Of a stretch of DNA of 64,000 bases, positions 33,625 to 49,157 are shown in pieces. This DNA is from Stenotrophomonas sp. 610A2 (GTDB lineage Bacteria > Pseudomonadota > Gammaproteobacteria > Xanthomonadales > Xanthomonadaceae). The notes beneath the pieces were generated by a model. It searched no databases. It was not told the origin of the DNA and was given only the letters and a program-made list of their open reading frames with translations. The translations under genes and the position numbers were made by a program. Location: positions 1,488,001-1,552,000 of the forward strand of contig NZ_CP130832.1 in the NCBI RefSeq assembly GCF_030549615.1, written 5' to 3'. Within the stretch, counting starts at the first letter, position 1. Every line of letters begins with the position of its first letter.

Positions 33625-35424
33625 TCAGCGGAAATGCGCCTCGATCTGCTCCAGCGTCTTGCCCTTGGTTTCCGGCAGCCAGAACGCGGCAATCAGGAAG
33701 AACGCAAACGTACACGCCGCCCAGAACAGGAACATGCTGGCGTAGCCGTAGTGGCCCACCGTCGGCAGGAACACCGCCGCTATCGTGGTCGACACGAACT
33801 GGTTGATCAGCAGCGCGATGCTCATGCCGTTCGAGCGGATGCGGTTTGGCATCAACTCCGACAAGGCCAGCCACACGCATACGCCCGGGCCGACCGCGAA
33901 GAACGCCACGAATACCAGGATGCAGGCCGCCACCGCCCAACCATGCGAAGCCGGCGGCACCGCACCGATCCAGGCCTGCTCGATGCGCAACGGTGCCTCG
34001 GCTGCGGCGCTTGGGTCGGGGAAGGGATTCAGGTGCAGGCTGCGGAAGAAACGGCCAATCACGCTGTCGGCATGCACGGTGCTGGAGCGCTCGATCAACA
34101 GCTGCTGATCGCTGGGGTTATCACTGCGCAGCGAACGCACATCGCTGAAGCCGCCATAGCTCCACGACACCGTCAGCTGCGAGGGTTGCCCGTCGCGATT
34201 GCGGGTGCCGGCCAGCTGATGCCATTGCGCCGCATCCAGCTGCAACTGCAGGCCATCTGCCTGCACCGCACGCTGCAACACCTGCTGCACATCGGCGCGG
34301 CCCTGCTCGGCCTTGAAGAACAGCATCGCTGCCGCCAGCAGGGCAAGACAGATGCCGCCACTGCCGATCATCAACAGGAACTTGCGGCCCTTGCGATCCA
34401 CCAGGAACAAGGCGACCAGCGTCATGATCACGTTGAGCAGCTTGATCGCTACATCCGCGCCGTTCGCAGCTGCACCGGGCAGACCAGCCTGATTGAGGAT
34501 GTTGACCGCGTAAGCGAGGATCGAGTTGATGCCGGTGGCCTGGGTGAAGGCCAGCACCAGGCAGGCCAGCACGAACGGCACCATGTAGCGGCGGCTGAAA
34601 AGCCGGTCGCGCTCGCCTTCGGCTTTCGCGATGACTGGATTCTGGATCTGCGCCAGCGTGGCTTCCACCTGTGACGGCGGCAGCGTGGCCTGCAGGCCGC
34701 GACGCGCGGCATCGATGCGACCGCGACGTGCCAGCCAACGCGGTGATTCATTTAGCCAGAACAGGCCAATGCAGAACACCACGCCCGGCAGCAGGCAGGT
34801 CCAGAAAATCGTGCGCCAGGCCTGGTCCTTCACCGCGAACAGGTGTTGCGCCTGCTGCACCAGTGGCAGGTTGCGCACCGACTCGGTCGCTGCATCCACC
34901 GAATGCGCCTGATACAGGCCAATCAAGGCAGCCAGCACCAGGCCTACCGTCAGCAGCAGCTGGAACATTGCCGCGCCGCGGCCGCGTCGTTCCGGTCCCA
35001 GCACTTCGGCCAGATACAAAGGCACCACAACGCCGATCAAACCGCCGCTGATGCCTTGCAACAGGCGTCCAAGCAGCAGCGGTGTATAGCCGGAGGCCAG
35101 CGCCATGATCGGGATGCTGGCTGTGAACAGCACGCCGGCCAGCATCATCGCGCCACGGCGGCCGATCAGGTCGGCGATCATGCCGGCGAACAGCGACGAC
35201 AACACGCTGCCCAGCAATACGGCGGCAACCACGAAGCCCATCTGCTGGCTGCTCAGCTGCCAGGCATGGCTGGCGGTCGCTTCCAGATAGGGCAGGGCGC
35301 CGGCAATGATGCCGATGTCGATGCCGTACAGCAGGCCGCCAAGACCGGCGATGAAAAGGAGATAGCGCACGGGCCAACGCGGCGCGGCGTCGCTGGCGGG
35401 CACGGCAAAAGTGGTGTCGGTCAT
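33625..35424 (-). CDS. MFS sugar porter, probable GalNAc permease
   Basis: 599 residues from the ATG at 35424. Twelve-span sugar porter family: GLLYGIDIGIIAGALPYLEA in TM1, RRGAMMLAGVLFTAS, VPLYLAEVLGPERRGRGA (the PESPR-like loop region) and NESPRWLARRGR. A hydrophilic stretch of about 130 residues between the ninth and tenth spans (from KAEQGRADVQQ to IGAVPPASHG) is longer than usual and should face the periplasm. It is the last gene of the leftward aga cluster, 133 bases after agaA with a GTAG palindrome between. GalNAc as substrate is inferred from context. Confidence 0.85.
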   Translation of the reverse strand: MTDTTFAVPASDAAPRWPVRYLLFIAGLGGLLYGIDIGIIAGALPYLEATASHAWQLSSQQMGFVVAAVLLGSVLSSLFAGMIADLIGRRGAMMLAGVLFTASIPIMALASGYTPLLLGRLLQGISGGLIGVVVPLYLAEVLGPERRGRGAAMFQLLLTVGLVLAALIGLYQAHSVDAATESVRNLPLVQQAQHLFAVKDQAWRTIFWTCLLPGVVFCIGLFWLNESPRWLARRGRIDAARRGLQATLPPSQVEATLAQIQNPVIAKAEGERDRLFSRRYMVPFVLACLVLAFTQATGINSILAYAVNILNQAGLPGAAANGADVAIKLLNVIMTLVALFLVDRKGRKFLLMIGSGGICLALLAAAMLFFKAEQGRADVQQVLQRAVQADGLQLQLDAAQWHQLAGTRNRDGQPSQLTVSWSYGGFSDVRSLRSDNPSDQQLLIERSSTVHADSVIGRFFRSLHLNPFPDPSAAAEAPLRIEQAWIGAVPPASHGWAVAACILVFVAFFAVGPGVCVWLALSELMPNRIRSNGMSIALLINQFVSTTIAAVFLPTVGHYGYASMFLFWAACTFAFFLIAAFWLPETKGKTLEQIEAHFR

Positions 35425-35524
35425 CGGCGCGTTCCTGGGGCTGGTTTTGTGGTGCCGGGCCCTGCCCGGTTTGCCGTGCGGGTGCGTGGCGTGTTCCGGT
35501 GATATGGCTACCGGAACGGAAGGC

Positions 35525-35547
35525 TGCCGAGCATGGCTCGGCACTAC
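35525..35547 (-). repeat. GTAG-type (SMAG-like) palindrome
   Basis: Single TGCCGAGC-AT-GGCTCGGCA followed by CTAC, in the agaA-permease gap. It could shape mRNA stability between the two cistrons. Confidence 0.8.
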
Positions 35548-35557
35548 ATGGAGCGGG

Positions 35558-36670
35558 TCAGCTTGGGTCGACGGGGGTGCCGGCTATCCATACCTGCTGC
35601 AATTTCAATTGCGGGTCCAATACCACCATGTCGGCACGCAGGCCCGGCGCGATGCGGCCGCGGTCTTCCAGATCCAGGTAATCGGCCTGGATGGTGGAAA
35701 CACGTTGCGAGGCGTCGGCAAGGTCCAGGCCGACATCGACCAGGTTGCGCAGCGCCTGGTCCATGGTCAGTGCGCTGCCGGCCAATGAGCCGGTCGAAAG
35801 CCGCACGCAGCCCATGCACTTGTGCACGCGTTGTTCGCCCAGTGCGTATTCGCCATCGGGCATGCCGGTGGCGGCGGTGGCATCGGTGACGGCATACAGG
35901 CGCGGGATCGCGCGCACCGCCATGCGGATGGCACCGCGATGCACATGCTGCAGGTCGGGAATCAGTTCGGCGTATTCCGCATGCGCCAATGCGGCAGCAG
36001 CGATACCGGGCTTGTAGTGATCAACGCCGGTCATGCCGTTGAACAGATGAGTGAAGCCAACCGCGCCAGCCTGCAATGCAGCGACCGCATCTTCGTACGT
36101 GCCGGCGCTATGGCCGATCTGCACGCGGATGCCCATTGCGGCCAAGGCTGGAATCAAGGCGGTGTGCTGGCCGATCTCCGGTGCGATCGTCAGCACCTTG
36201 ATCGGGGCCAGGGCATGCAGGTGTTGCACCGACTCCAGCGTTGCCTCCAGCGTCCGCGGTGGCTGTGCGCCCAAACGCTGCGGGCTGATGAAGGGACCTT
36301 CCAGATGCACGCCGATGATCTGCGCAGCATCGGGATCGGGCGTCGCCATCACCTGCGCTACACCGCGCAGGGCGTTCTCGATCTCGGCGTACTCGGCGGT
36401 CATGGTGGTGCCGAGCAGGGTGGTGGTGCCGTAGCGCGCATGGGTGTGGGCGATGCGGCGGGCGACATCGCCGCCCTGCATCAAATCCACGCCGGCTGCG
36501 CCATGCACGTGCAGATCGATGAAGCCGGGCAGGATGATAGGCAGATCGCTGCCGTCGCCAGCATGGTCTTCCACGTCCAGCGTGCGCAGTTGCTGGTCGA
36601 AGTGGACGTGGCCGCGGCGCCAGCCCAAGGGAGTGAGGATGCGGCCGTACAGGCTGCGGGTAGCGGTCAT
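35558..36670 (-). CDS. agaA: N-acetylgalactosamine/glucosamine-6-phosphate deacetylase
   Basis: 370 residues. Amidohydrolase of the NagA family: FIDLHVHGAAGVDLMQ (H-x-H), GVHLEGPFISPQRLGAQ (metal Glu), QIGHSAGTYEDAVAALQAGA (His), and AVTDATAATGMPDGEY (catalytic Asp). It removes acetate from the 6-phosphate of the amino sugar. GalNAc-6-P rather than GlcNAc-6-P is inferred from its place beside agaS, agaZ and agaR; nagA is the alternative name. The ATG overlaps the agaR stop (ATGA), so the pair is coupled. Confidence 0.9.
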   Translation of the reverse strand: MTATRSLYGRILTPLGWRRGHVHFDQQLRTLDVEDHAGDGSDLPIILPGFIDLHVHGAAGVDLMQGGDVARRIAHTHARYGTTTLLGTTMTAEYAEIENALRGVAQVMATPDPDAAQIIGVHLEGPFISPQRLGAQPPRTLEATLESVQHLHALAPIKVLTIAPEIGQHTALIPALAAMGIRVQIGHSAGTYEDAVAALQAGAVGFTHLFNGMTGVDHYKPGIAAAALAHAEYAELIPDLQHVHRGAIRMAVRAIPRLYAVTDATAATGMPDGEYALGEQRVHKCMGCVRLSTGSLAGSALTMDQALRNLVDVGLDLADASQRVSTIQADYLDLEDRGRIAPGLRADMVVLDPQLKLQQVWIAGTPVDPS

Positions 36671-37443
36671 AGCGGTGGCTCGGCGGTGATCACTTCGATG
36701 CCCTGGCGCTGCAGTCCCTCGCGGGTGGCATCGTCGATGCCGGTATCGGTGATGATGGCGTGGATCTGGTCGAGGCGCGCGATGCGGTGCAGGCTGACGC
36801 GGCCGAATTTCGAGGCGTCGGTCAGCACCACGATGCGCCGTGCGCGCTCGACCATGCGGTGATTGAGGCGGGCTTCGGCTTCGTCATGGGTGGTCAGGCC
36901 GAACTGCAGGTCCAGGCCGTCCACGCCGAGGAACAAGGTGTCGAAGCTGTAGGAGGTGAGGCTGGCTTCGGCCTGGCTGCCCTGCAGCGACAGCGACTGC
37001 TTGCGCAGCAGGCCGCCGGTGAGCAGCACGTTGACCGCCGGTGCGTTGGCCAGCTCCCAGGCAATGTTCAGACCATTGGTCATCACGGTGACATCGCGGT
37101 GATCGCGCAGGTGCCGGGCCAGGGTCATGGTGGTGGAGCCGGAGTCGATGATGATGTTGTCGCCGGGTTGCACCAGCTGCGCGGCGCGCATGCCGATGGA
37201 TTCCTTCAGCGACAGGTTCAGCGCATCTTTCTCGTGGATGTCCTGTTCCAGCGGCGGCATGCGTACCAGCGTTGCGCCACCGTGGGTGCGCGTGGCAAGG
37301 CCCTGGGCCTCGAAGTGGCCCAGGTCGGTACGGATGGTCACCGCCGACACGCCGAACTGGTCAACCAGTTCGGCAACCTGCACCGAGCCCTGGTCGATCA
37401 GGCGTTGCAGGATCTGCTGTCGGCGGGGACGGGTATTGCGCAT
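36667..37443 (-). CDS. agaR: DeoR/GlpR family repressor, AgaR-like
   Basis: 258 residues from the ATG at 37443. HTH at the N-terminus (RRQQILQRLIDQGSVQVAEL, then VDQFGVSAVTIRTDLGHFEA). DeoR sensor: IIDSGSTTMTLARHLRDH and VLLTGGLLRKQSLSLQG. AgaR proteins repress GalNAc genes and respond to a phosphorylated intermediate. Known proteobacterial AgaR operators share CTTTC, and that motif is abundant in the 40911-41226 region. Embedded in the operon between agaZ and agaA. Confidence 0.9.
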   Translation of the reverse strand: MRNTRPRRQQILQRLIDQGSVQVAELVDQFGVSAVTIRTDLGHFEAQGLATRTHGGATLVRMPPLEQDIHEKDALNLSLKESIGMRAAQLVQPGDNIIIDSGSTTMTLARHLRDHRDVTVMTNGLNIAWELANAPAVNVLLTGGLLRKQSLSLQGSQAEASLTSYSFDTLFLGVDGLDLQFGLTTHDEAEARLNHRMVERARRIVVLTDASKFGRVSLHRIARLDQIHAIITDTGIDDATREGLQRQGIEVITAEPPL

Positions 37444-37475
37444 GGTCAGCTCTCTTGTGCGTTTGAAAGCGGAGA

Positions 37476-38810
37476 TTAACCGTTCGCAAGGTTTTGGGTG
37501 CGCAAACTTTCGCTTTGCTTGCGCGCACCTGCCTGATTGGCGCTGCAGGCGCGCGCGTATTCGCCCAGGCACTGGCCGACGCGATGCTGCACCAGGGCGG
37601 CGGGAGTTGCGGCCAGCTGGCCCTCCCGCACGGCCACGTACTGGCCCGGCAGGTATTGGCTGAGCAGCACCAGCGGCGGGGTGTGCTTTTCGAGGTTGGC
37701 GAACAATGTCTGCACAGCCTGCAGCAGTTCCGGCTCGCCCCAGTAGTAGCGGCAGCGGTCACTGAAGGCGTAGGAGCGCAGCAGACGCAGCGTGGCTTCA
37801 TCGCCGTGGTAATGCGCCTGCCAGTTCTTCGGCTTGGCCAGCATCACTTGTTCCAGCACCTGTGGCAGCTTCGAGCACTGCGCGGCGGGCAGCAGTACGG
37901 CTTCGATCGCGGCGAGTGCGAACAGCGCTTCGCGGTAGGCGAACGTTGCCGCAGGGCCGACCTTGAGGATGGCGAAGTGATCGCGCACCAATGCATGCAG
38001 GCCGGACTCGCGCTGATAGTCAGTGGAGTGCGCTTCAAACACGATGCGCGGCTGCTGTTCGAGGAAATCGGCCAACTCGCTGGCAGCGGCGGCATCGTAT
38101 TCGTGCACGCTGCTGTGGTCGAAGTCCACGCCCGGCTGCACCACCATTGCAATCACGCGCTGCCAGGCATCGCGCAGATCCGGCGTATCGAACGCCTGCT
38201 GGTGGATGGCCAGGGTCTGCGCGGCAGCGGCCGGCGTGGTCACCGCCAAGCCGCCTGCCAACGAGGCCTCGCCACCGGGGATCGGCACTTCGGTACCAAT
38301 CACGTAGACCGGCGGCGGCAGGCCCATGGCTGCAGCGGTCGCTTCGGCAATCAGCGCCAGTTCGGCCGAGCGCGCGGCGACGGTTGCGTCCGGCAGCGGG
38401 GTCGGGTCGTCAGCGCAGGACATGCTGCAGTCCAGATGGATCTTGTGGAAGCCGGCGGCGACGTAGGCATCGATCAATACGCGCGCATTGGCCATCGCTT
38501 CGGCGGCCGGCTGCTTCTGCCACGCGTTGGGACCGAGATGGTCGCCGCCCAGGATCAGCTGCGCGCGCGGGAAGCCTTCCTCATCAGCAAGCGCTTCCAC
38601 ATAGGCGCGGTACTGCGACGGAGTCATGCCGGTGTAGCCGCCGAACTGGTCAACCTGGTTGGAGGTGGCTTCGATCAGCAGCACGGTGCCGTGCTGCGCG
38701 GCCACATGCATTGCAGCGCGCAACACCTGTTCGTTGCTGCAGCAGACGCTGTACAGGCCGACATTGTGGCCTTGGCGATGAGAGGCAAGCAGGGATTGCA
38801 GCGGTGACAT
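37476..38810 (-). CDS. agaZ: Tagatose-bisphosphate aldolase non-catalytic subunit (AgaZ/KbaZ/GatZ family)
   Basis: 444 residues from the ATG at 38810, with GGAG 7 bases upstream; a TTG at 38816 would overlap agaK. LLASHRQGHNVGLYSVCCSN then LLIEATSNQVDQFGGYTGMT are GatZ/KbaZ signatures. These proteins support the class II aldolase KbaY/AgaY, and a kinase role for AgaZ has also been proposed. No catalytic subunit gene is present here, so the aldolase step must be supplied elsewhere or by another enzyme. Two bases separate it from agaK. Confidence 0.92.
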   Translation of the reverse strand: MSPLQSLLASHRQGHNVGLYSVCCSNEQVLRAAMHVAAQHGTVLLIEATSNQVDQFGGYTGMTPSQYRAYVEALADEEGFPRAQLILGGDHLGPNAWQKQPAAEAMANARVLIDAYVAAGFHKIHLDCSMSCADDPTPLPDATVAARSAELALIAEATAAAMGLPPPVYVIGTEVPIPGGEASLAGGLAVTTPAAAAQTLAIHQQAFDTPDLRDAWQRVIAMVVQPGVDFDHSSVHEYDAAAASELADFLEQQPRIVFEAHSTDYQRESGLHALVRDHFAILKVGPAATFAYREALFALAAIEAVLLPAAQCSKLPQVLEQVMLAKPKNWQAHYHGDEATLRLLRSYAFSDRCRYYWGEPELLQAVQTLFANLEKHTPPLVLLSQYLPGQYVAVREGQLAATPAALVQHRVGQCLGEYARACSANQAGARKQSESLRTQNLANG

Positions 38811-38812
38811 GG

Positions 38813-39763
38813 TCAAGCTCCGGGAATCAGGTAAGCGGGTTGGCAGGCGAGCAGGGCGGCACCACGGGCACCGCCGGCATCGCCGAAGCGCGGTGGCACG
38901 ATGGGCGGCACTTCCACGCCGTTGAACAGATGTGCGGCGATGGCCGCGGGCAGCTGCTGGTAGAGCGGCGCGTACTGCGACAGACCGCCACCGAGCACGA
39001 TGACGTGCGGGTCCAGCGCGAGGATCAGCGCGGCGAAACTATGGCCGAGCAGATCGCGGTGGATGTCCAGCGCCTGCATGGCGCGGGTATCGCCAGCTTC
39101 GGCCTGGGCGATGACTTCGCTGGCGTTGGCCGCATTGCCGCCAAGATGGCGTTCGATCATTGCCACGCCGCTGCCGGAGACATAGCGCTCCACGCAGCCG
39201 CGCAGGCCGCAGCCACAATCCAGCAGTGGCAGGCCGTGCCGTTGCAGCAGGTTGGCTGGCACGCTCCAGTGGCCCCATTCGCCGGCCAAGCCGTTGAAGC
39301 CACCGACCAGCTTGCCGTGCAGGCAGTAACCGCCGCCGGCACCGGTGCCGAGGATGGCACCGAACATGCTGGGGTAAGCATCCGCCGCGCCGCCGTGTGC
39401 CTCCGACAAAGCAAAGCATTGCAGGTCGTTGCCGAAATGCAGCGGCCGCTGCAGGCGCGCCTGCAGATCGGCGCTGACGCATTGGCCGGTCAGTGCCGGT
39501 ACGTTGGCACTGAGCTGGCGACCACTGCGCCGCTCGCGCACGCCGGGCAGGGCGATGCCGATGGCCTGCGCGCGTTGGCCGAGCTCTGCATCGGCATCTG
39601 CAACCAGCGTTTCCACTGCCTGCAGGAAACCGTTGTAGTCGCCTTGTGGGGTGGCGATGCGTTTGCGCCACGCGACCTGGAGGGCGGCATCGCAGGCCAC
39701 CAGTTCAATCTTGGTACCGCCAATGTCGATGCCGTAACAGGCCGGGGCGCGGGTATCAGCCAT
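38813..39763 (-). CDS. agaK: ROK family amino-sugar kinase, probable GalNAc kinase
   Basis: 316 residues. YGIDIGGTKIELVACD is the ATP phosphate-1 loop, GAILGTGAGGGYCLHGKL the second, and LLDCGCGLRGCVERYVSG the ROK zinc/sugar motif (C-G-C-G-x2-G-C). ROK kinases phosphorylate hexoses; the AgaK of Shewanella is a characterised ROK GalNAc kinase, so 6-phosphorylation of GalNAc imported by the porter is likely. Overlaps agaS by 8 bases. GlcNAc kinase (NagK) is the alternative. Confidence 0.9.
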   Translation of the reverse strand: MADTRAPACYGIDIGGTKIELVACDAALQVAWRKRIATPQGDYNGFLQAVETLVADADAELGQRAQAIGIALPGVRERRSGRQLSANVPALTGQCVSADLQARLQRPLHFGNDLQCFALSEAHGGAADAYPSMFGAILGTGAGGGYCLHGKLVGGFNGLAGEWGHWSVPANLLQRHGLPLLDCGCGLRGCVERYVSGSGVAMIERHLGGNAANASEVIAQAEAGDTRAMQALDIHRDLLGHSFAALILALDPHVIVLGGGLSQYAPLYQQLPAAIAAHLFNGVEVPPIVPPRFGDAGGARGAALLACQPAYLIPGA

Positions 39764-40910
39764 GGTGGATGGTGACGCCCTTGACCACGCGGTTGACGGT
39801 GCCGTCCGGGAACGGATTGTCCGGGGTCAGGCCGAGTGCGGCCGAGCGCTGCAGTGCGTACAGCTGGGCGAACGGCAGCCATACCGGCGCCAGCCAGCTG
39901 TCAGGCAGGGCAGGCGCGGACAAGGTGTAGTCGTCGTGGATGCCCAGGTCCGAATGCGGGCCGATCGACAATACCTTGCCGGCAACGCCATCACCGCGCA
40001 GTTCTTCCAGCAGATCCTGCTCGTAGCGACGCGACAGCGGTTCGGCGCTGCGCAGCACGACGACCAGGGTTTCATCATTGAGCGTGGACTTGGGACCGTG
40101 GCGGAAACCCAGCGGGGTATTGGCCAGGGCCAGCACGCGGCCAGCGGTGAGCTCCAATACCTTCAGCGCAGCCTCGCGGGCCAGCGCTTCCAGTGGACCA
40201 CTGGCAAGGTAGATAACGCGGTTGTATGGCTGCGCAGCGAGTGCAGCTACCGCTGCATCCCAGTTATCCAAGCCCTGGCGCGCGAGTGCGGCAACCTGCT
40301 GCAGGCGCTGTACACGCTCGGCCCAAGGGGCGCTGTCGAACACGGTCAGTGCGGTCAGCAGCATGCAGCTCAGGCTGCTGGTCATGGCGAAGGCGCGGTC
40401 GCAGCTGGCGGCCGGCATCAGCAGCGTGCAGGTATCGTCGCGACCGGCGCCACGGCGGGCCAGCTCGCCTTCGGCATTGCAGGTGATGTCGAGGAAGCGG
40501 GCATCGTCGACGTCGGCGCGGACGCGGTCGACGGCGGCCACGCTTTCCGGGCTGGAACCGCTGCGGCCGAACGACACCAGCAGGGTCGGGCGGTCGCGCT
40601 GCAGGTACAGCGCCGGGTGGGTGAGCAGGCTGGTGGTGTGCACGGCGCGCACTTCGGCCGGCCACTGCGCATTGATGGTGTCGGCCACCATCTCGGCGAT
40701 GAAACCGGAGCTGCCGGCGCCAGTGAAGATCACCCGCTGGCGCGGATCGGACAGGCGCTGCCCATGGAAATCCTGCAGGCGGGTGCTGGCCTGTTGCAGG
40801 TCGATGGCAAGCGTTTCCCACAGCGCGGGCTGCTGGGCGATTTCGGTAGCGGTATCGGATCCGCCCAGGCGCTGCCAGGCGGTCAGATCGTGAAGCAGGT
40901 TGGCATCCAT
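39756..40910 (-). CDS. agaS: Galactosamine-6-phosphate deaminase/isomerase (SIS domain)
   Basis: 384 residues from the ATG at 40910; an upstream in-frame start would run into the control region. Two SIS domains: RVIFTGAGSSGFIAEMVADT and LLVSFGRSGSSPESVAAVDR. VLELTAGRVLALANTPLGFR with HGPKSTLNDE is typical of AgaS. It converts GalN-6-P to tagatose-6-P and ammonia. First gene of the leftward operon, behind several CTTTC/GAAAG boxes. Confidence 0.93.
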   Translation of the reverse strand: MDANLLHDLTAWQRLGGSDTATEIAQQPALWETLAIDLQQASTRLQDFHGQRLSDPRQRVIFTGAGSSGFIAEMVADTINAQWPAEVRAVHTTSLLTHPALYLQRDRPTLLVSFGRSGSSPESVAAVDRVRADVDDARFLDITCNAEGELARRGAGRDDTCTLLMPAASCDRAFAMTSSLSCMLLTALTVFDSAPWAERVQRLQQVAALARQGLDNWDAAVAALAAQPYNRVIYLASGPLEALAREAALKVLELTAGRVLALANTPLGFRHGPKSTLNDETLVVVLRSAEPLSRRYEQDLLEELRGDGVAGKVLSIGPHSDLGIHDDYTLSAPALPDSWLAPVWLPFAQLYALQRSAALGLTPDNPFPDGTVNRVVKGVTIHHG

Positions 40911-40939
40911 GTGTGATTCCTGATTGGCCAGCGCACCAT

Positions 40940-40984
40940 CTTTCTTTTCTTTCGAAATGTCAAATACCGAAAGCAAAACGAAAG
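40940..40984. promoter_or_regulatory. Candidate AgaR operator near agaS
   Basis: CTTTC boxes at 40940-40944 and 40949-40953 (CTTTCTTTTCTTTCG) are followed by GAAAG boxes at 40969-40973 and 40980-40984, exactly 11 bases apart. They lie 30-75 bases upstream of agaS. CTTTC in multiple spacings is the known core of proteobacterial AgaR sites. Confidence 0.65.
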
Positions 40985-41026
40985 AAATTATTTGATTCGA
41001 CTTTGCTGCCTTGAGAATCGTCCGAA

Positions 41027-41055
41027 GCGAAAGGTTTCCCGGGAAACCCTTTCGC
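41027..41055. promoter_or_regulatory. 29-bp near-perfect palindrome centred on CCCGGG
   Basis: GCGAAAGGTTTCCC faces GGGAAACCCTTTCGC; the right arm has one extra C. Each arm includes one GAAAG/CTTTC box, so this may be a high-affinity AgaR dyad shared by both directions, or the binding site of another regulator. Confidence 0.55.
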
Positions 41056-41104
41056 AGCAATGAATGCGCTCAGCTTCGCGATGTGAAAGTTGGTGCTGTG
41101 CACC

Positions 41105-41180
41105 ATCTTTCGATTGCAAGAAATCTTACTTATCTTTTGCTTTCATTTTGTTGACATCTTTCGATTTCCTGCCCTAGAGT
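41105..41180 (+). promoter_or_regulatory. Promoter and operator of the GH31 gene
   Basis: TTGACA at 41151-41156, 18 bases, then TAGAGT at 41175-41180. CATCTTTCGATT occurs identically at 41105-41116 and 41156-41167, the second copy lying in the promoter spacer. Another CTTTC is at 41140. A repressor bound there would block RNA polymerase. Confidence 0.65.
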
Positions 41181-41226
41181 CGGCGCACTCGGTTTCGAAA
41201 CGCCCGTTGAACGGGTTGGAGGCAAG

Positions 41227-44200
41227 GTGGAACACTGCGTTCGTCAATCGCCGCTGCTGCTGGCGCTGCTTTCGGCCCTGTTGTTGCCGGCAGTGACCGC
41301 ACAGGCCGAGCCCATCGGCAATCTGCGCTCCGTCACCGCCAGCGATGGCCGCGACGGCGTGCGAGCCTGGGACGTACGCAGTGACAACGGCAGCACCCTG
41401 CGCATCGAGGTGCTGGCCAACGACATCGTGCATGTGCAGGCCGGCCGCAACGGCAAACTGACCGGCGCTGGCGACAAGGCCGCGCCCATCGTGTTGCCGC
41501 AGCCCGTGCAGCAGGTGCAGGCGCAGCTGGAAGAAGACGCGCAGGAGATCCGCGTGCGTACCCCGGCGCTGGTCCTGCATGTGCAGCGGCAGCCCCTGCA
41601 GCTGCGGTTGGAGCGTCTGGACGGTGGCAAGCCGGTGTCGCTATGGCAGGAGCAGCAGCCGCTGGACCTGTCCGCCGAGCAGAGCGTGCAGGTGCTGTCC
41701 TCGCAGGCAGATGAAGCCTTCTACGGTGGCGGCCAACAGAACGGCCGTTTCCAGTTCAAGGGCCGCGAGCTTGAAGTTTCCTATTCCGGTGGCTGGGAAG
41801 AGGGCGACCGCCCGAGCCCGGCGCCGATGCTGCTCAGCTCACGCGGCTGGGGCATGTTGCGCAATACCTGGAGCGACGGCAGCTATGACCTGCGCCAGCC
41901 GGACCAGGCCACGCTGCTGCACCGCGAGGATCGCTTCGACGCCTATTACTTCGTCGGCAATGATCTGCAGCGGCTGCTGGAACGCTACACCCAGCTGACC
42001 GGCCGGCCGAACATGGTCGCGCGCTGGGCGCTGTCCTACGGCGATGCCGATTGCTACAACGACGGCGACAACATCAAGAAGCCCGGCAGCGTGCCCGAAG
42101 GCTGGAGCGATGGCCCCACCGGCACCACCATCGACGTGGTCAACAGCGTTGCCGCCAAGTATCGCGAGAACGATATGCCGGGCGGTTGGATCCTGCCCAA
42201 CGACGGCTATGGCTGCGGTTACAAGCAGCTGCCGGAAACCGTGCAGGGCCTGGTCAAGTACGGCTTCAAGACCGGCCTGTGGACCGAGAACGGCGTCGAC
42301 AAGATCGCCTGGGAAGTCGGCAAGGCCGGCAGTCGCGTGCAGAAGCTGGACGTGGCCTGGACCGGGCAGGGCTATCAGTTCGCGATGGATGCCAACCGCC
42401 AGGCCTTCGACGGCATTCTCAACAATTCCGACTCGCGCCCGTTCCTGTGGACGGTGATGGGGTGGGCCGGCATCCAGCGTTATGCGGTTGCATGGACAGG
42501 CGACCAGAGCAGCAGCTGGGACTACATCCGCTGGCACGTGCCGACCCTGGTGGGTTCGGGCCTGTCCGGCATGGCCTATGCCAGCGGCGACGTTGATGCG
42601 ATCTTCGGCGGCAGCGCCGAGACCTTTACCCGCGACCTGCAGTGGAAGACCTTTACTCCGGTGCTGATGGGCATGTCCGGCTGGTCGTCGAATGCGCGCA
42701 AGCACCCCTGGGCTTTCGATGAGCCCTACCGTTCGATCAACCGCGACTACCTCAAGCTGAAAATGCGCCTGACCCCGTATATGTACGGGCTGGTGCATGA
42801 CGCCGCACAAAGCGGCGCGCCGCCGGTGCGCGGACTGATGTGGGACAACCCGCAGGACCCGCACGCGCAGGACGAAACCTACAAGTACCAGTTCCTGCTC
42901 GGCCGCGATCTGCTGGTCGCGCCGGTCTATCGCAGCCAGGCGGCAAGCCGTGGTTGGCGCCGCGACATCCATCTGCCGGCTGGCGGCTGGTACGACTATT
43001 GGGACGGCCGCCATCTGCAGGCCGGTGCTACCGGCAAGCAACTCGACCGCCCGGTCGAACTGGCGACGCTGCCGGTATTCGTGCGTGCCGGTGCGATCCT
43101 GCCGATGTATCCGGAAATGCTGTTCGATGGCGAAAAACCGCTGGATGAAGTGACCTTCGATCTGTATCCGCAGGGCGAATCCAGCTACACCTTGTACGAA
43201 GACGATGGCAGCACCCGCCGCTACCAGAAGGGCGAATCGAGCACGCAGCAGATCCGCGTGCAGGCACCGGCGCAGGGCAGTGGTCCGGTGCAGGTGGAGA
43301 TCGCGCCGGTACAGGGCGAGTATCAAGGTCAGTTGGCGCAGCGCCGTTACGGCCTGCGCGTGTTGAATCGCACTGCGCCTACCGCAGTGCAGGCGGATGG
43401 CCGGGCGCTGCCCAAACTGGCCGATGCGGCTGCACTGCAGGCAGCCAGCGAAGGCTGGTACTTCGACACCAAGGAACGCAAGGGCACGCTGCACGTGCGT
43501 ACTGCCACGCAGGACATCCGTGCGCCGTTGAAACTGCAGCTGGATTTTCCGGTCGCCGCCGCACTGGCTGACGACGCTTTCCCGAACGCACCGGAGCTGG
43601 GCCGCGCGCTGCCGTCCGACAGCCTGCTGGTGGTCAACCGTCCGGCCGAAGAGCCCGGCCATCCGCTGGAAAATGCTTTCGACGATGATCCGGCAACCTG
43701 GTTCCGTAGCGTGCGCAACCAAGCCATCCGTACCGGCGCCCACGAATGGGTGGTGGGCTTTGGCGAACGCAAGCTGATCGACGGCATCGAGCTGGCACCG
43801 CGCAATGACCAGCACTGGAAACATGGCCAGGTGCGTGACTACGAAATCTACATGGCCGACAGCAATGGCGAGTGGGGCAAGCCGATTGCCAGCGGTCAGC
43901 TGCAGCTGAAGCAGGAACTGCAGCGCATCGATTTCCCTGCCCATGCCGGTCGCCTGCTGCGCTTCCGCGTGCTCAGCGTGCAGAACCCCGACGGTGATGG
44001 CGCAAGCGGTGCCGATCCGATGGTGACCGCAGCGCAGGGCAGCACCGCACGTGCGGTGGATGCACTGCAGCCGCGCGATGTTGGCCCGATTGCACTGTCC
44101 ACCTTCCACATCCTCGAGCAGCAAACGGCTGAGCGGCCGGCGCGGCAGCAATACCTCTCCCAGCTGCCGCTGCCGGCCGTATTGGCCGCCCAGGTGCATG

Positions 44201-44589
44201 CCGATCGTTCGTTTGCCGCCGCGGTACCGATGCGCATGAACGGCTTGCAGTTCCGCCGCGGCCTCGGTGTCGGCGCGCAAAGCCGCATCGACATGAGCTT
44301 GAAGGGGCAGTGGAAAACACTGCGCGCCGACCTCGGCGTCGACGACCAATGCCGTCAAGCCGGCGGACTCCAGTTCCAGGTCTGGGGTGATGATCGCCTG
44401 CTCTATGACAGCGGCTTCGTGAAAGCGCCGGGTGTGGTCAAGCCCGAGCTCGACATCCGCGGTCTTTCCAAATTGAGCCTGCGCACCTTGGGCGCGCAGG
44501 GTAGCCAACCGTCCCAGGTCTGCGCCAACTGGGCCAACGCCGTACTGATCGGCGAGGAGGGCGATTCCGCCGACATCCTCGCCCCATGA
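41227..44589 (+). CDS. Secreted GH31 glycosidase with CBM32- and NPCBM-like domains, probable alpha-N-acetylgalactosaminidase
   Basis: 1120 residues from a GTG at 41227, with GGAGG 5 bases upstream. The signal peptide ends near TAQA. The GH31 N-terminal beta domain comes first, then the barrel. QKLDVAW puts a nucleophile candidate at D375, and AWTGDQSSSW an acid/base candidate at D426. GSGLSGMAYASGDVDAIFGG and QWKTFTPVLMGMSGW resemble subfamily 18, which includes alpha-GalNAc enzymes, rather than alpha-glucosidases. A discoidin/CBM32-like domain spans about 790-930, and an NPCBM-like domain (RNGLGVG-type RRGLGVGAQSRIDM) about 950-1115. Divergent from agaS. Confidence 0.85.
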   Translation: MEHCVRQSPLLLALLSALLLPAVTAQAEPIGNLRSVTASDGRDGVRAWDVRSDNGSTLRIEVLANDIVHVQAGRNGKLTGAGDKAAPIVLPQPVQQVQAQLEEDAQEIRVRTPALVLHVQRQPLQLRLERLDGGKPVSLWQEQQPLDLSAEQSVQVLSSQADEAFYGGGQQNGRFQFKGRELEVSYSGGWEEGDRPSPAPMLLSSRGWGMLRNTWSDGSYDLRQPDQATLLHREDRFDAYYFVGNDLQRLLERYTQLTGRPNMVARWALSYGDADCYNDGDNIKKPGSVPEGWSDGPTGTTIDVVNSVAAKYRENDMPGGWILPNDGYGCGYKQLPETVQGLVKYGFKTGLWTENGVDKIAWEVGKAGSRVQKLDVAWTGQGYQFAMDANRQAFDGILNNSDSRPFLWTVMGWAGIQRYAVAWTGDQSSSWDYIRWHVPTLVGSGLSGMAYASGDVDAIFGGSAETFTRDLQWKTFTPVLMGMSGWSSNARKHPWAFDEPYRSINRDYLKLKMRLTPYMYGLVHDAAQSGAPPVRGLMWDNPQDPHAQDETYKYQFLLGRDLLVAPVYRSQAASRGWRRDIHLPAGGWYDYWDGRHLQAGATGKQLDRPVELATLPVFVRAGAILPMYPEMLFDGEKPLDEVTFDLYPQGESSYTLYEDDGSTRRYQKGESSTQQIRVQAPAQGSGPVQVEIAPVQGEYQGQLAQRRYGLRVLNRTAPTAVQADGRALPKLADAAALQAASEGWYFDTKERKGTLHVRTATQDIRAPLKLQLDFPVAAALADDAFPNAPELGRALPSDSLLVVNRPAEEPGHPLENAFDDDPATWFRSVRNQAIRTGAHEWVVGFGERKLIDGIELAPRNDQHWKHGQVRDYEIYMADSNGEWGKPIASGQLQLKQELQRIDFPAHAGRLLRFRVLSVQNPDGDGASGADPMVTAAQGSTARAVDALQPRDVGPIALSTFHILEQQTAERPARQQYLSQLPLPAVLAAQVHADRSFAAAVPMRMNGLQFRRGLGVGAQSRIDMSLKGQWKTLRADLGVDDQCRQAGGLQFQVWGDDRLLYDSGFVKAPGVVKPELDIRGLSKLSLRTLGAQGSQPSQVCANWANAVLIGEEGDSADILAP

Positions 44590-44710
44590 CCCACCCGTAA
44601 CACCGCTCCTCCCACCGGATTACCCCCGGCTACGGTCCAAGAACCGTGGCATGGGATCGCTTTGCCCGCCAACTGCTTTTTTTGCGTGCCCTTGCCAGGA
44701 GAGAACCCCG

Positions 44711-47686
44711 ATGTTGCCAGCCAACCGCAGTGCCAAACGCTGTTTGCAAGCCCCGCTATCGTTGGCTGTCGCCAGCGTGCTGTTCGCCATCGCCGCACCT
44801 GCCTTCGCGCAGGACAAGGCTGAAAAGGAAAAGGACAAGACCACCGAGTTGTCCCGCATCGAGGTCACCGGTTCCAACATCCGTCGCACCGATGTGGAAA
44901 CCGCATCGCCGGTGCAGGTGATCAGCAAGCAGGACATCCAGAACATGGGTGCACGCACGCTGTTGCAGGTGCTCGACAATCTGCCAGCGGCACGACCGGG
45001 CCAGGTCGATTCCAAGTCCCTGTTCACCGGCTCCGACGGCGCGTCGCAGGCTAATCTGCGTGGCCTTGGTGCACAGGGCACGCTGGTGCTGTTGAACGGT
45101 CGCCGCCTGTCGTACTACGGTGCACCGGCTGGCTTCCAGACCCAGTTCGTCAACATCGATGCCATTCCTGCCGCGGTGATCGAGCGCATGGAAGTGCTGA
45201 CCGATGGCGCCTCGGCCGTGTACGGTACCGACGCGGTGGCTGGCGTGATCAACGTCATCACCAAGAGCAGCTACCAGGGCTTGGAAGTCAGCGGCACCTG
45301 GGACACCGCTTCGCGCTTTGATTCCTTCGGTGAAAAGCAGGCCAGTGTCACCGGCGGTTTCGGCGACATGGCCGAGGATGGCTACAACGTCTATGCCAGC
45401 GTCAATCTGTATGAGCGCGACGGTATTCCGGACAGCGAGTGGTACCTGAAGAACCCGGGCCAGTTCTACGTCAACAATCCGGACTACATCAAGAACCTGC
45501 GACTGGACACCGGCAGTGCGCCCGGTGTGTTCAATCCGGGCTACTACTACGCCATCGACCCGGTCACCGGCGCGCGCAGGGATGAGGCTGCACCGGGCTG
45601 CAACAACGTGCTGCAGGTCAGCAGCGGCACCCGCTGCATCTGGCAGACCTGGATGAACCGGCAGATCAATGGCGGCGCTGATTCCAAGCGCGTCACTGCC
45701 TACGTCAACAGTCATTTCCAGCTCAACGACACCACCGAAGCGTTTGCCGAAGTCACCTATACCGACATCGACCTGCATGCCAATGGCGGCACGCCGCGTG
45801 CGTATGGCACCACCACCGGCAATCCGCAGAGCTGGTTCTCGCGCAACACCGGCAACACGGTCAACCAGTTCCTGACCCCGTGGCTCGGCCCGAACAACGA
45901 ATACAACCACGCCAGCCCGGAACTGAAGGCGATGAATGGCGGTGTGGTCGGTTTGGGCTATCTGCTGCAGGACGTTGGCGGTGGCCACTTCGGCCAGCGC
46001 AACACCGACGAGAGCTACCGCGCCGTTGCTGGTCTGCGCGGCAGCGCCGGTGACTGGAACTGGGAAACCGCGTTCGCCACCGCCGGCTCGCATTCGGTCA
46101 CCTACCAGACCACCAACGTCAACCTGAAGGGCTTCGAGAAGGCCTTTGGTCCTTACACCATCGATCCGGGCACCGGCCGCGTCATCATTTCCGATCACCC
46201 GGCCTACAAGTTCGGCGAGATCAGTGAAGCCAATGCGGCGCTGATACGCGAAGCCTTCCCGACCTTCGACATCGAGTCGTGGACCCGCCTGCACACCTTG
46301 GACGGCAAGATCGAAGGCCCGCTGTTCAACATGCCGGCCGGCGAAGTGCGCGCGGCATTCGGCTTCAACGCCACCCGCGAGACCTTCTACACGCCGGGTA
46401 ACCCGGATGCCGCAAACGGCCTGATCACCCAGCAGGGCGGCTCGTGGTTCGACGGCAAGCGCAATACCTATGCGCTGTTCGCCGAAGCCGTGGCACCGCT
46501 CACCGAAAAGCTCGAGATGGACCTGGCACTGCGCCTGGACAAGTACCCGGGCTTCAGCGCCAACGCCGCGCCGAAGATCGGCCTGAAGTACCAGGCGCTG
46601 CCGCAGCTGATGCTGCGCGGTACCTATTCGGAAGGCTTCCGTGCACCGAGCCTCGCCGAGGCTGGTAGCGGTGGCGTGTATGCGCAGATCGGTGGTTACC
46701 GCGATGAAGTCCGTTGTGCCGAAACCAATGCGATCGCGGGCCTGCTGCGGCAGTCCAACCGCGTCGTCGACAAGGACCTGGGCAACAGCCTGTGGAACAG
46801 CGATTGCAGCCGCAACGTGGCGCGCATGACCCAGCCCAACCAGGACCTGAAGCCGGAGAAGGCGAAGATCGCCACCTTGGGCTTCGTGCTGGAACCGACC
46901 GATTGGTTGTCGGTGTCGGCCGACTACTGGTTCGTATACCGCCGCGATGAAATCGTCGCGCCGGATTACAGCAAGGAAGAAGACATCGACTCGATGACCC
47001 GCTTCCCTATCACCGAGTCCGACAAGTCCAACCTCGTTGCGCTGGCTGCCATGTGCAGCGACCCGGCCAGTGGCGTCACCTGTCCGGGCACCTTGCCGGG
47101 CTATAGCATCGGTAACGTCGCCAGCGTGATCGGACAGTACAGCAACCGTGGCCGCACCCTGATCGACGGCTTCGACGTGGACCTGCGCAGCCGCTTCGAC
47201 CTGGGTGAATGGGGCCGCCTGAACATCGGCGTGGCCGCGACAATTGCCAATCGCAACATGTACAACTCCGACAACGGTGACGGCTGGTACTACGGCAACG
47301 TGGTTGGTTACTACAACAACCCGATGGTGCGCGCCACGTTCAACACCAACTGGACGTATGGCAACTGGGACACCGGCTTCTACGTGAACTATGTCGGCGG
47401 TACCAAGTGGGCCTATGACCGCATCGACGCCGAAGACAACAACGCACAGACCTGCACCGGCAGCTACCTCGACCTGGCCCCGGGCCATTGCGGTGGCGCA
47501 CCGGCATGGTGGACGGCAAACCTGAGCGTGAACTGGCGTCCGATCGAGAAGCTGAGCGTGGGCGTGACGGTGAAGAACCTGTTCAACCGCCTGCCGTTCT
47601 ACGACCCGAACGACTGGATGAACTTCGCCGGCTACACCAACAACTTCGGCCGCATCTACAGCGTGACCGCGACCTACAAGTTCTGA
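44711..47686 (+). CDS. TonB-dependent outer-membrane receptor of the GalNAc locus
   Basis: 991 residues from the ATG at 44711, with AGGAGAG 7 bases upstream. Signal peptide to about residue 33 (APAFA then QDK). The plug domain has IEVTGSNIRRTDVETASPVQ and LTDGASAVYGTDAVAGVINV, and the barrel ends in YSVTATYKF with the terminal aromatic needed for assembly. Oar-like large receptors of this kind import oligosaccharides in Xanthomonadaceae. Placed between the two glycosidases, 121 bases after the GH31 gene, it probably imports alpha-GalNAc glycans. No SusD-like partner is present. Confidence 0.92.
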   Translation: MLPANRSAKRCLQAPLSLAVASVLFAIAAPAFAQDKAEKEKDKTTELSRIEVTGSNIRRTDVETASPVQVISKQDIQNMGARTLLQVLDNLPAARPGQVDSKSLFTGSDGASQANLRGLGAQGTLVLLNGRRLSYYGAPAGFQTQFVNIDAIPAAVIERMEVLTDGASAVYGTDAVAGVINVITKSSYQGLEVSGTWDTASRFDSFGEKQASVTGGFGDMAEDGYNVYASVNLYERDGIPDSEWYLKNPGQFYVNNPDYIKNLRLDTGSAPGVFNPGYYYAIDPVTGARRDEAAPGCNNVLQVSSGTRCIWQTWMNRQINGGADSKRVTAYVNSHFQLNDTTEAFAEVTYTDIDLHANGGTPRAYGTTTGNPQSWFSRNTGNTVNQFLTPWLGPNNEYNHASPELKAMNGGVVGLGYLLQDVGGGHFGQRNTDESYRAVAGLRGSAGDWNWETAFATAGSHSVTYQTTNVNLKGFEKAFGPYTIDPGTGRVIISDHPAYKFGEISEANAALIREAFPTFDIESWTRLHTLDGKIEGPLFNMPAGEVRAAFGFNATRETFYTPGNPDAANGLITQQGGSWFDGKRNTYALFAEAVAPLTEKLEMDLALRLDKYPGFSANAAPKIGLKYQALPQLMLRGTYSEGFRAPSLAEAGSGGVYAQIGGYRDEVRCAETNAIAGLLRQSNRVVDKDLGNSLWNSDCSRNVARMTQPNQDLKPEKAKIATLGFVLEPTDWLSVSADYWFVYRRDEIVAPDYSKEEDIDSMTRFPITESDKSNLVALAAMCSDPASGVTCPGTLPGYSIGNVASVIGQYSNRGRTLIDGFDVDLRSRFDLGEWGRLNIGVAATIANRNMYNSDNGDGWYYGNVVGYYNNPMVRATFNTNWTYGNWDTGFYVNYVGGTKWAYDRIDAEDNNAQTCTGSYLDLAPGHCGGAPAWWTANLSVNWRPIEKLSVGVTVKNLFNRLPFYDPNDWMNFAGYTNNFGRIYSVTATYKF

Positions 47687-47700
47687 TCCACGCAGCAGCG

Positions 47701-47731
47701 CTTCCCCCTCATGCATTGCATGAGGGGGAAG
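47701..47731 (+). other. 15-bp stem-loop between the receptor and GH109 genes
   Basis: CTTCCCCCTCATGCA and TGCATGAGGGGGAAG form a perfect inverted repeat around one T, 14 bases after the receptor stop. There is no T run. It may protect the receptor mRNA 3' end or attenuate read-through into the GH109 gene. Confidence 0.65.
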
Positions 47732-47801
47732 ACAGTGACACCGTCAGCACGGTCGCGGCACGCCTGCCATGACCGGCACGACCCCTGAAAGAGGAAACAC
47801 A

Positions 47802-49157
47802 ATGAAGCGTAGGGAATTCATCATGGCCAGCGCGGCCCTGGCCGCCACCAGCCTGTTGCCGAACACCCCGGCGTGGGCACGTGGTCGCAAGGTGCGCCTG
47901 GGCGTGATCGGCACCGGCATGCGTGGCCAGGTACTGCTGAAGGAACTGGTACGCCGCGACGACGTCGAAGTGGTTGCCCTGTGCGACATCGAGCCGATCA
48001 TGCTCGGCCGCGCCATGGCCATGGTGGCCAAGGCAGGCAAGCCGGCACCGCAGGCTTACGGTGCGGACCGTGACCAGAACGCCTGGAAGCGCCTGCTGGA
48101 GCAGCGCGGCCTGGATGGCGTGATCATCGCCACCCCGTGGGAACTGCATGCACCGATGGCGATCGCTGCGATGCAGGCCAAGGTCGCGGTGGGCTGCGAA
48201 GTGGTCGCCGGCATCTCCCTGCAGGACCATTGGGATGTGCTCAACACCCAGCTCAGCACCGGCACGCCCTACATGTTGCTGGAGAACGTGTGTTACCGCC
48301 GTGACGTGATGGCCGCGCTGCAGATGGTGCGCCAGGGCCTGTTCGGCGAACTGGTGCATCTGCAGGCCGGTTACCAGCACGACCTGCGCGGGGTGAAGTT
48401 CAACGACGGCACGCCGGAGCATCCCTATGACAGCGGCGTGGAGTTCGGCGCCAAGGGCTGGTCGGAAGCACGCTGGCGCACCGAGCATTCCGTACAGCGC
48501 AATGGCGAGTTGTATCCCAGCCACGGCATCGGCCCGTGCGCGATGTATACCGGCATCAACCGCGGCAACCGTTTCACCCATATCAATGCCTTCGCCAGCA
48601 AGGCGCGCGGCCTGCACGAGTACACCGTGGCCAAGAGCGGCGGCACCACCCATCCGAGCACCAAGGTCAAGTTCAAGCTCGGCGACATCGTCACCACCAC
48701 GCTGGCCTGCGAGAACGGTGAGACCATCCTGCTGCAGCACGACACCTCGTTGCCGCGCCCGTACTCGATGGGCTTCCGCGTGCAGGGCACCAAGGGCCTG
48801 TGGATGGACGTCAACCACGGCATCCACATCGAAGGCCGCAGCCCGCCGCACCAGTGGGAAGAGTTCAAGACCTACCAGGACCAGTACGAGCACCCGCTGT
48901 GGAAGCAGCATGCCGATACCGCCGCAAGCGCCGGTCACGGTGGCATGGACTGGTTCGTGATCCACGCCTTCGTCGAGGCATTGAAGGCCAAGTCACCGAT
49001 GCCGATCGACATCTATGACGCCGTGACCTGGAGCGCCATCACGCCGTTGTCCGAGCAGTCGATTGCCAACAGCTTCCAGACCCTGGAGTTCCCGGATTTC
49101 ACCAAGGGCCTGTGGCAGCAGCGCAAGCCGATCTTCGCCTTCGACGGCAGTTATTGA
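47802..49157 (+). CDS. GH109 alpha-N-acetylgalactosaminidase (Gfo/Idh/MocA fold)
   Basis: 451 residues from the ATG at 47802, with AGAGG 7 bases upstream. A Tat signal (KRREFIMASAALAATS) should export it already folded with bound NAD. Rossmann motif LGVIGTGMRGQVL; QAYGADRDQNAWKRLLEQ and ELYPSHGIGPCAMYTGIN fit GH109, the latter containing the conserved Tyr/His of the active site. GH109 cleaves terminal alpha-GalNAc by an NAD-dependent elimination mechanism. The neighbourhood of aga genes supports this over a plain oxidoreductase. Confidence 0.88.
   Translation: MKRREFIMASAALAATSLLPNTPAWARGRKVRLGVIGTGMRGQVLLKELVRRDDVEVVALCDIEPIMLGRAMAMVAKAGKPAPQAYGADRDQNAWKRLLEQRGLDGVIIATPWELHAPMAIAAMQAKVAVGCEVVAGISLQDHWDVLNTQLSTGTPYMLLENVCYRRDVMAALQMVRQGLFGELVHLQAGYQHDLRGVKFNDGTPEHPYDSGVEFGAKGWSEARWRTEHSVQRNGELYPSHGIGPCAMYTGINRGNRFTHINAFASKARGLHEYTVAKSGGTTHPSTKVKFKLGDIVTTTLACENGETILLQHDTSLPRPYSMGFRVQGTKGLWMDVNHGIHIEGRSPPHQWEEFKTYQDQYEHPLWKQHADTAASAGHGGMDWFVIHAFVEALKAKSPMPIDIYDAVTWSAITPLSEQSIANSFQTLEFPDFTKGLWQQRKPIFAFDGSY

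Follow-up and report, generated by a model that had tools for sequence, protein, structure and literature searches.

How does a bacterium that carries a gene set for the catabolism of N-acetylgalactosamine (GalNAc), and no class II aldolase, complete the pathway? The question is raised by a nine-gene locus in a 64,000-nucleotide stretch of the Stenotrophomonas sp. 610A2 genome (contig NZ_CP130832.1, positions 1,488,001 to 1,552,000), referred to here as the window, whose numbering is used throughout. Six genes run leftward (by position, a permease gene, agaA, agaR, agaZ, agaK and agaS) and three run rightward (GH31, a TonB-dependent receptor and GH109), with about 315 base pairs between the two sets. 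The locus is probably an AgaR-controlled system for harvesting alpha-linked GalNAc, in which AgaZ acts as a stand-alone 4-epimerase and no aldolase takes part.

Pfam and NCBIfam searches confirmed all nine genes at the coordinates and in the orientations listed below, and the genome is a single contig of 4,681,496 bases. The original prediction of two gene sets facing each other across one control region is thus borne out. The starts of agaP, agaR and agaS, which lie within longer open reading frames (ORFs), were chosen in the analysis, that of agaR being the methionine before the helix-turn-helix.

33625..35424, minus strand: agaP, sugar-porter permease of the major facilitator superfamily (MFS), about 599 amino acids (Sugar_tr, 289 bits; ORF 33625-35544)
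35558..36670, minus strand: agaA, N-acetylhexosamine-6-phosphate deacetylase (Amidohydro_1, 65 bits; NCBIfam nagA, 226 bits)
36667..37443, minus strand: agaR, DeoR-family repressor AgaR (NCBIfam AgaR, 328 bits; ORF 36667-37572)
37476..38816, minus strand: agaZ, PF08013 protein, proposed stand-alone D-tagatose-6-phosphate 4-epimerase (GatZ_KbaZ-like, 617 bits)
38813..39763, minus strand: agaK, ROK-family sugar kinase, proposed GalNAc kinase (ROK, 216 bits)
39756..40910, minus strand: agaS, SIS-domain galactosamine-6-phosphate deaminase/isomerase (agaS_fam, 399 bits; ORF 39756-41060)
40911..41226, no strand: divergent control region with ten CTTTC/GAAAG boxes and a promoter-like site (box count, promoter scan)
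41227..44589, plus strand: GH31 alpha-N-acetylgalactosaminidase (GH31_18-like) with F5/8C and NPCBM modules (Pfam domains; profile match to 6m76)
44651..47686, plus strand: TonB-dependent outer-membrane receptor, not SusC (TonB barrel, 121 bits; Plug, 73 bits)
47769..49157, plus strand: GH109 alpha-N-acetylgalactosaminidase, dependent on nicotinamide adenine dinucleotide (NAD), with a signal like those for twin-arginine translocation (Tat) (GH109 C-terminal domain, 273 bits; 2ixa)

Gene order, family membership, active-site conservation, the box cluster and the absence of class II and PF01791 aldolases are read from the sequence itself, and every substrate, location and reaction in the following scheme is one that we infer. 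The TonB receptor would bring GalNAc-bearing glycopeptides or oligosaccharides into the periplasm. The GH31 enzyme would remove GalNAc from peptide, and the GH109 enzyme, exported folded with NAD by the Tat route, would remove it from other alpha-GalNAc ends. Free GalNAc would be carried inward by AgaP, phosphorylated to GalNAc-6-phosphate by AgaK, deacetylated to galactosamine-6-phosphate by AgaA, and deaminated and isomerised to tagatose-6-phosphate by AgaS. AgaZ alone would then convert tagatose-6-phosphate to fructose-6-phosphate, so that neither a tagatose-6-phosphate kinase nor a tagatose-bisphosphate aldolase would be needed. AgaR would bind the CTTTC cluster between both operons and be released by a pathway intermediate. 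Such a system would equip soil and plant-associated relatives of Stenotrophomonas and Duganella to feed on O-glycosylated proteins by a defined route, and would be a source of alpha-GalNAcases from outside the gut.

AgaZ and the last steps of the pathway

In the classical route, tagatose-6-phosphate is phosphorylated and then cleaved (PMC12118421). Among the nine genes, the Pfam and NCBIfam scans recognised neither a tagatose-6-phosphate kinase nor a catalytic subunit of a tagatose-bisphosphate aldolase, and because of this the earlier description of the locus as complete-looking fails for the classical route. Profile searches of the whole genome found no PF01116 class II aldolase (a model that matched in 11 of 14 control genomes) and no PF01791 aldolase (13 of 14 control genomes matched). 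Without a class II aldolase to pair with AgaZ in this genome, the last steps cannot follow the enteric aldolase reading; as far as profile models can tell, these searches show AgaZ to be working without such a partner.

The family name, and the role of KbaZ with KbaY (PMC3668189), would suggest that AgaZ is an accessory subunit of a class II tagatose-bisphosphate aldolase whose catalytic subunit is encoded elsewhere. We consider this extremely unlikely. In addition to the negative search of a single-contig genome, PF01116 scored over its cut-off in only three of 198 genomes of the family, none of them among the 43 with PF08013, two of which gave short sub-threshold matches. At the sensitivity of the Pfam model, the subunit role is therefore rejected for this genome, which has no PF01116 match.

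A different activity is suggested by the PF08013 proteins of Escherichia coli. GatZ and KbaZ are reported to be C4-epimerases that convert fructose-6-phosphate to tagatose-6-phosphate, and their metal and substrate residues differ from those of class II aldolases (PMC11907403). AgaZ resembles them in its PF08013 domain and in the six active-site residues named in that report, with C25, E49, H93, E176, H263 and K285 aligning with GatZ C20, E44, H88, E171, H257 and K279 (PMC11907403), and the six are invariant in 33 sequences. With the general agaZ_gatZ model, AgaZ scores 601 (cut-off 568.8). Its structural model (mean predicted local distance difference test score, pLDDT, 83) matches 2fiq and then the Sinorhizobium protein 3txv first, and later, weaker matches, at template-modelling (TM) scores near 0.4-0.5, include class II aldolases (among them tagatose-bisphosphate aldolase 1gvf) and the Thermotogota enzyme 9lhw, which we take to be a tagatose 4-epimerase. 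Apart from 2fiq and 3txv, the 50 fold matches listed contain no kinase. The epimerase reports for GatZ and KbaZ, the six invariant residues and the fold matches without a further kinase favour a stand-alone 4-epimerase. The published activity comes from tagatose production in engineered E. coli (PMC11907403), whereas AgaZ lies in a GalNAc operon of a genome without class II aldolase, and none of the papers listed in our literature searches has a title or abstract that links AgaZ epimerase activity to a GalNAc operon.

Several observations weigh against an epimerase. According to the authors of the GatZ report, the differences in the active site give no clear explanation for which reaction is preferred (PMC11907403). 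AgaZ does not reach the equivalog cut-offs for KbaZ (595 of 707) and GatZ (485 of 579), and 195 of the 198 family genomes have no PF01116 over cut-off, with or without AgaZ, so that the lack is general in the family and not a correlation in itself. Further, the closest solved relatives, 2fiq and 3txv, are titled putative or probable tagatose 6-phosphate kinase, and the genome has one class I aldolase (PF00274; open frame of 352 amino acids; none of the 14 control genomes matched, which leaves this family without a positive control). These two facts would suit the same locus and substrate with AgaZ as a tagatose-6-phosphate kinase and the host class I aldolase cleaving tagatose-1,6-bisphosphate. 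We regard this as unlikely: those two entries are the only ones titled as kinases among the 50 fold matches, the class II aldolases follow at low TM-scores near 0.4, and epimerase activity is reported for E. coli GatZ and KbaZ (PMC11907403).

The genome also has one phosphofructokinase (PFK)-family gene, which together with the class I aldolase could in principle run a kinase-aldolase route and leave AgaZ with a minor or unrelated role. It would help such a route that class I aldolases are not always stereospecific. It is nonetheless distinctly unlikely, given that 77 of the 80 related loci compared carry agaZ (the 80 being the best of 199 confirmed, with L001 and L002 from the window's own genome left out of the locus counts), that its active site is invariant in the 33 sequences, and that a homologue occurs in a second locus type described below. 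The genome also has seven PfkB-type genes. At E up to 1e-30, the products of six resemble known kinases (a fructokinase, two ribokinases, and 2-keto-3-deoxygluconate, pyridoxal and hydroxymethylpyrimidine phosphate kinases) and the seventh had no match. Models for tagatose-6-phosphate kinase and 1-phosphofructokinase matched none of the seven at this threshold, and the fructokinase-like protein matched tagatose kinase weakly (123 of 420 bits).

The epimerase reading bears on a wider dispute, in which AgaZ and KbaZ are variously an aldolase subunit or chaperone, a tagatose-6-phosphate kinase or an epimerase (PMC11907403, PMC12118421, PMC3668189); a 2025 review lists AgaZ as an aldolase subunit or proposed kinase (PMC12118421). 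A single-contig genome with AgaZ in a GalNAc operon and no class II aldolase makes the role of AgaZ in this lineage easily decidable.

Substrate and uptake

The presence of a TonB receptor and two unrelated GalNAcase-type enzymes in an alpha-GalNAc locus, as originally predicted, is supported by profile comparisons with solved structures, in which 6m76 and 2ixa are the nearest to the putative GH31 and GH109 enzymes. The GH31 protein reaches 468 bits with 6m76 (profile positions 19-759), an Enterococcus alpha-GalNAcase, and 242 bits with the next structure that is not a GalNAcase. Asp375 corresponds to the residue that entry 7f7r has as Asn in place of Asp, and Asp375, Asp426, Asp455 and Asp457, in the active-site motifs, are invariant in 81 sequences. 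A signal peptide was seen by eye. Judged by these profiles, the catalytic part is closest to a GalNAcase among solved GH31 enzymes and GH31_18-like. GH31 subfamily 18 is reported so far to hold alpha-GalNAc-active enzymes only (PMC13096917); for its Akkermansia member, a periplasmic location is predicted and a specificity for peptide-linked GalNAc is described (PMC11790493, PMC13096917). The GH31 type points to GalNAc on peptide (PMC11790493), with Tn antigen, blood-group A and other glycans as candidate natural substrates.

The GH109 protein has both the Rossmann domain and the GH109 C-terminal domain, and its nearest structure is the alpha-N-acetylgalactosaminidase 2ixa (477 bits). Across 68 of 68 sequences, a loose twin-arginine pattern occurs and the seven positions that we take to be the active site do not vary. 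In Bacteroides, the GH31 enzyme is reported to have acted on desialylated mucin only and the GH109 enzyme to have preferred blood-group A (PMC11992087); the two enzymes here may be complementary in the same way. Both enzymes are reported to release GalNAc in Bacteroides (PMC11992087), so novelty on this point is not supported.

The Bacteroides thetaiotaomicron polysaccharide utilisation locus (PUL) BT4240-4250 is similar in its use of GH109 and GH31 alpha-GalNAcases, an MFS transporter and a GalNAc kinase on mucin-type glycans (PMC11992087). It differs in its SusD-type uptake and in that the GH31 enzyme (BT3169) lies outside the PUL, and its kinase is described as phosphorylating O1, so that the deacetylase-deaminase route is not followed (PMC11992087). 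In the window, the receptor scores 31 bits with the SusC/RagA model (cut-off 368) and no SusD-type match was found among the nine scanned proteins; a SusCD-type PUL is rejected on these grounds. The locus had been proposed as a Stenotrophomonas counterpart of a PUL without SusC/D. It would indeed work like a PUL without SusD, with a receptor that is not SusC, but it is not specific to Stenotrophomonas.

Among the closest known systems is that of Shewanella, whose GalNAc pathway is listed with the TonB-type omp-Aga, permease AgaP, kinase AgaK, AgaA-II, AgaS and agaO (PMC2996990, PMC12118421). Both have a kinase and permease instead of a phosphotransferase system (PTS), a TonB-type transporter, AgaA and AgaS. 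However, Shewanella AgaP belongs to the GGP permease family (PMC2996990), whereas AgaP of the window is a sugar porter with an inserted domain; and GH31 and GH109 flank the receptor in the window, while Shewanella, known from the pathway listing, may also have glycosidases. With a TonB-type transporter already listed beside AgaP and AgaK in Shewanella (PMC2996990, PMC12118421), the joining of Aga catabolism to outer-membrane uptake is not supported as new. The E. coli aga/kba cluster shares homologues of AgaA, AgaS, AgaR and KbaZ, and differs by its PTS uptake and catalytic aldolase KbaY (PMC3668189). The locus represents a variant form of the Aga pathway of Proteobacteria. Its mode of uptake has precedents, and the proposed aldolase-free ending is the part worth testing. 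None of the papers listed for GalNAc in Stenotrophomonas or Lysobacter has a title or abstract that describes such a locus.

AgaP scores 270 bits with the NCBIfam sugar porter model (cut-off 238). Its structural model shows a GLUT/STP/XylE-type fold with a mixed alpha/beta insert of about 115 amino acids (residues about 376-490, window 33955-34299; pLDDT about 78-92) after the ninth predicted membrane helix. Gaps make up 0 to 6 per cent of the insert columns across the 61 sequences aligned. Used as a query against 476 candidates of similar length, the insert retrieved 58 proteins, each with sugar-transporter domains.

The inner enzymes and the glycosidase literature also supply arguments against the main reading. 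The nearest chain to AgaK in the PDB is an N-acetylglucosamine (GlcNAc) kinase (263 bits), AgaS reaches 399 bits and so falls under the agaS_fam cut-off of 529, and GH31_18 enzymes from Akkermansia and Hoskinsella are reported to be inactive on Tn antigen (PMC11790493, PMC13096917). The ten best PDB matches of AgaA are NagA enzymes, that is, GlcNAc-6-phosphate deacetylases, and its nagA score of 226 is barely above the cut-off of 225.65. As GH31 also holds glucosidases, the locus could serve another sugar, such as GlcNAc or an alpha-glucoside, under misleading gene names. We judge this highly unlikely: AgaR exceeds its equivalog cut-off, GalNAcases are the nearest matches of the GH31 and the GH109 enzyme alike, and the galacto pathway is where AgaS and AgaZ belong. 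AgaK itself is below the GlcNAc-kinase equivalog cut-off (301 of 380). For AgaS, agaS_fam is still the best-scoring family, and its three best PDB matches, 3odp, 3c3j and 3i0z, are of that type (putative tagatose-6-phosphate ketose/aldose isomerase; 263-277 bits).

A second locus type with AgaS and AgaZ

Among the 198 family genomes, GH31 (E up to 1e-150) was found in 28, all of which are among the 43 with PF08013, at a distance of 2426 to 2632 bases from the PF08013 gene (hypergeometric probability of co-occurrence 1.7e-23, with relatedness not corrected). The AgaZ regions of the 15 PF08013 genomes without GH31 are of two kinds. Three (L099, L102 and L104, the latter on a short contig) look like the window's locus, except that the fetched stretch shows no GH31, and twelve (L097, L098, L100, L101, L103 and L105-L111) share a different, syntenic locus. 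An example from the same genus as the window is L107:6718-18274 (genome G145).

In this second locus, the AgaS homologues are 40-46 per cent and the AgaZ homologues 48-51 per cent identical to those of the window. An AgaR-like regulator and a TonB receptor are also encoded there, together with a BadF-type kinase, an EamA transporter, a GH36-type enzyme and an Amidohydro_2 protein; the Pfam scans behind these assignments covered members of L107 and L109. No agaA or ROK kinase homologue was found there by tblastn; the Amidohydro_2 protein could represent a different kind of deacetylase. The GH36-type enzyme of L107 matches the alpha-galactosidase 8x1b at 247 bits and 9awt, titled 'A type blood alpha-D-galactosamine galactosaminidase', at 243 bits. 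The simplest reading of these domains is a putative alpha-galactosamine utilisation locus with AgaS and AgaZ as the shared core, and such a core fits action on galactosamine-6-phosphate and tagatose-6-phosphate. On balance, it seems fairly likely that GalNAc users of the family have an aldolase-free pathway in which AgaZ alone converts tagatose-6-phosphate to fructose-6-phosphate and one AgaS-AgaZ core is fed by GH31/GH109 alpha-GalNAc loci and by GH36-type alpha-galactosamine loci.

Control region and conservation of the locus

Ten CTTTC/GAAAG boxes lie in the 314 bases at 40913-41226. No other stretch of that length in the window holds more, and a count of ten was reached in 0 of 2000 dinucleotide shuffles. 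The enrichment recurs in 73 related control regions, with a median of 6 boxes compared with a median background mean of 0.24; 65 of the 73 exceed, and 71 equal or exceed, the box maximum elsewhere in the same locus. The 73 come from 78 loci, with L052, L060, L063, L065 and L071 set aside as having no simple intergenic region. A promoter-like site, TTGACA-18-TAGAGT at 41151-41180 on the plus strand, points to GH31 (one found in the scan, 0.2 expected), and the box at 41158 lies inside it. AgaR scores well over its equivalog cut-off (328 against 260 bits), and a multi-copy CTTTC motif has reportedly been described for AgaR by Leyn et al. in 2012. Genome-wide, the tandem triple-CTTTC pattern is not enriched, with five matches and five in the control; a wider AgaR regulon defined by this pattern is unsupported, and because the matches equal the control we claim none.

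The arrangement itself is conserved across related loci and not due to chance. A gene was scored as present when its best tblastn piece spanned over half of the query; the totals include some misses that reflect loci truncated at contig or fetch ends. On this basis, agaR, agaZ, agaK and agaS lie on one strand and GH31 on the opposite strand in 76 of the 80 related loci, and in 60 of these 76 the receptor and GH109 are also on the GH31 strand. All nine genes are on the window's strands in 56 of 80 loci, in the same order in 54 of those 56, and without a large insert between GH31 and GH109 in 40 of the 54. The loci come from Stenotrophomonas, Lysobacter, Pseudoxanthomonas, Thermomonas, Luteimonas, Duganella, Massilia, Janthinobacterium, Rugamonas, Pelomonas and others. 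The window's GH31 is 97 per cent identical (best segment) to that of Stenotrophomonas terrae DSM 18941 and 99 per cent to that of Stenotrophomonas sp. PS02298. The locus seems to sit at different genomic places, because the window's flanking genes adjoin it in six loci (L003, L004, L005, L022, L056 and L062) but were not found in the fetched flanks of the S. maltophilia loci. A comparison of AgaR with plasmids gave 3248 records, all below 60 per cent identity.

Some related loci depart from the common layout. L062 (S. nitritireducens) retains the flanks and the other genes of the locus, and agaP and agaA were not found there. The Thermomonas loci L041 and L044 keep GH31 and the receptor, with a POT-type transporter upstream of GH31; aga catabolic genes were not found in the fetched stretch, and L044 keeps agaR.

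Two further neighbours, neither seen in the window's locus, occur beside related loci and hint at additional glycan steps. A DUF5077-DUF3472 protein is found near GH109 in a cluster of 15 loci, mostly from Burkholderiales, of which three examples were domain-scanned (L066:21388-22653, L029:16596-17870 and L058:19367-20719); it may bind or cleave glycans as one more component of the system. A GH35 beta-galactosidase lies beside three loci (L079:17347-19704, by scanning; L040:20278-22161 and L048:19019-20938, by clustering), a neighbour that would suit core-1 (Gal-GalNAc) O-glycans.

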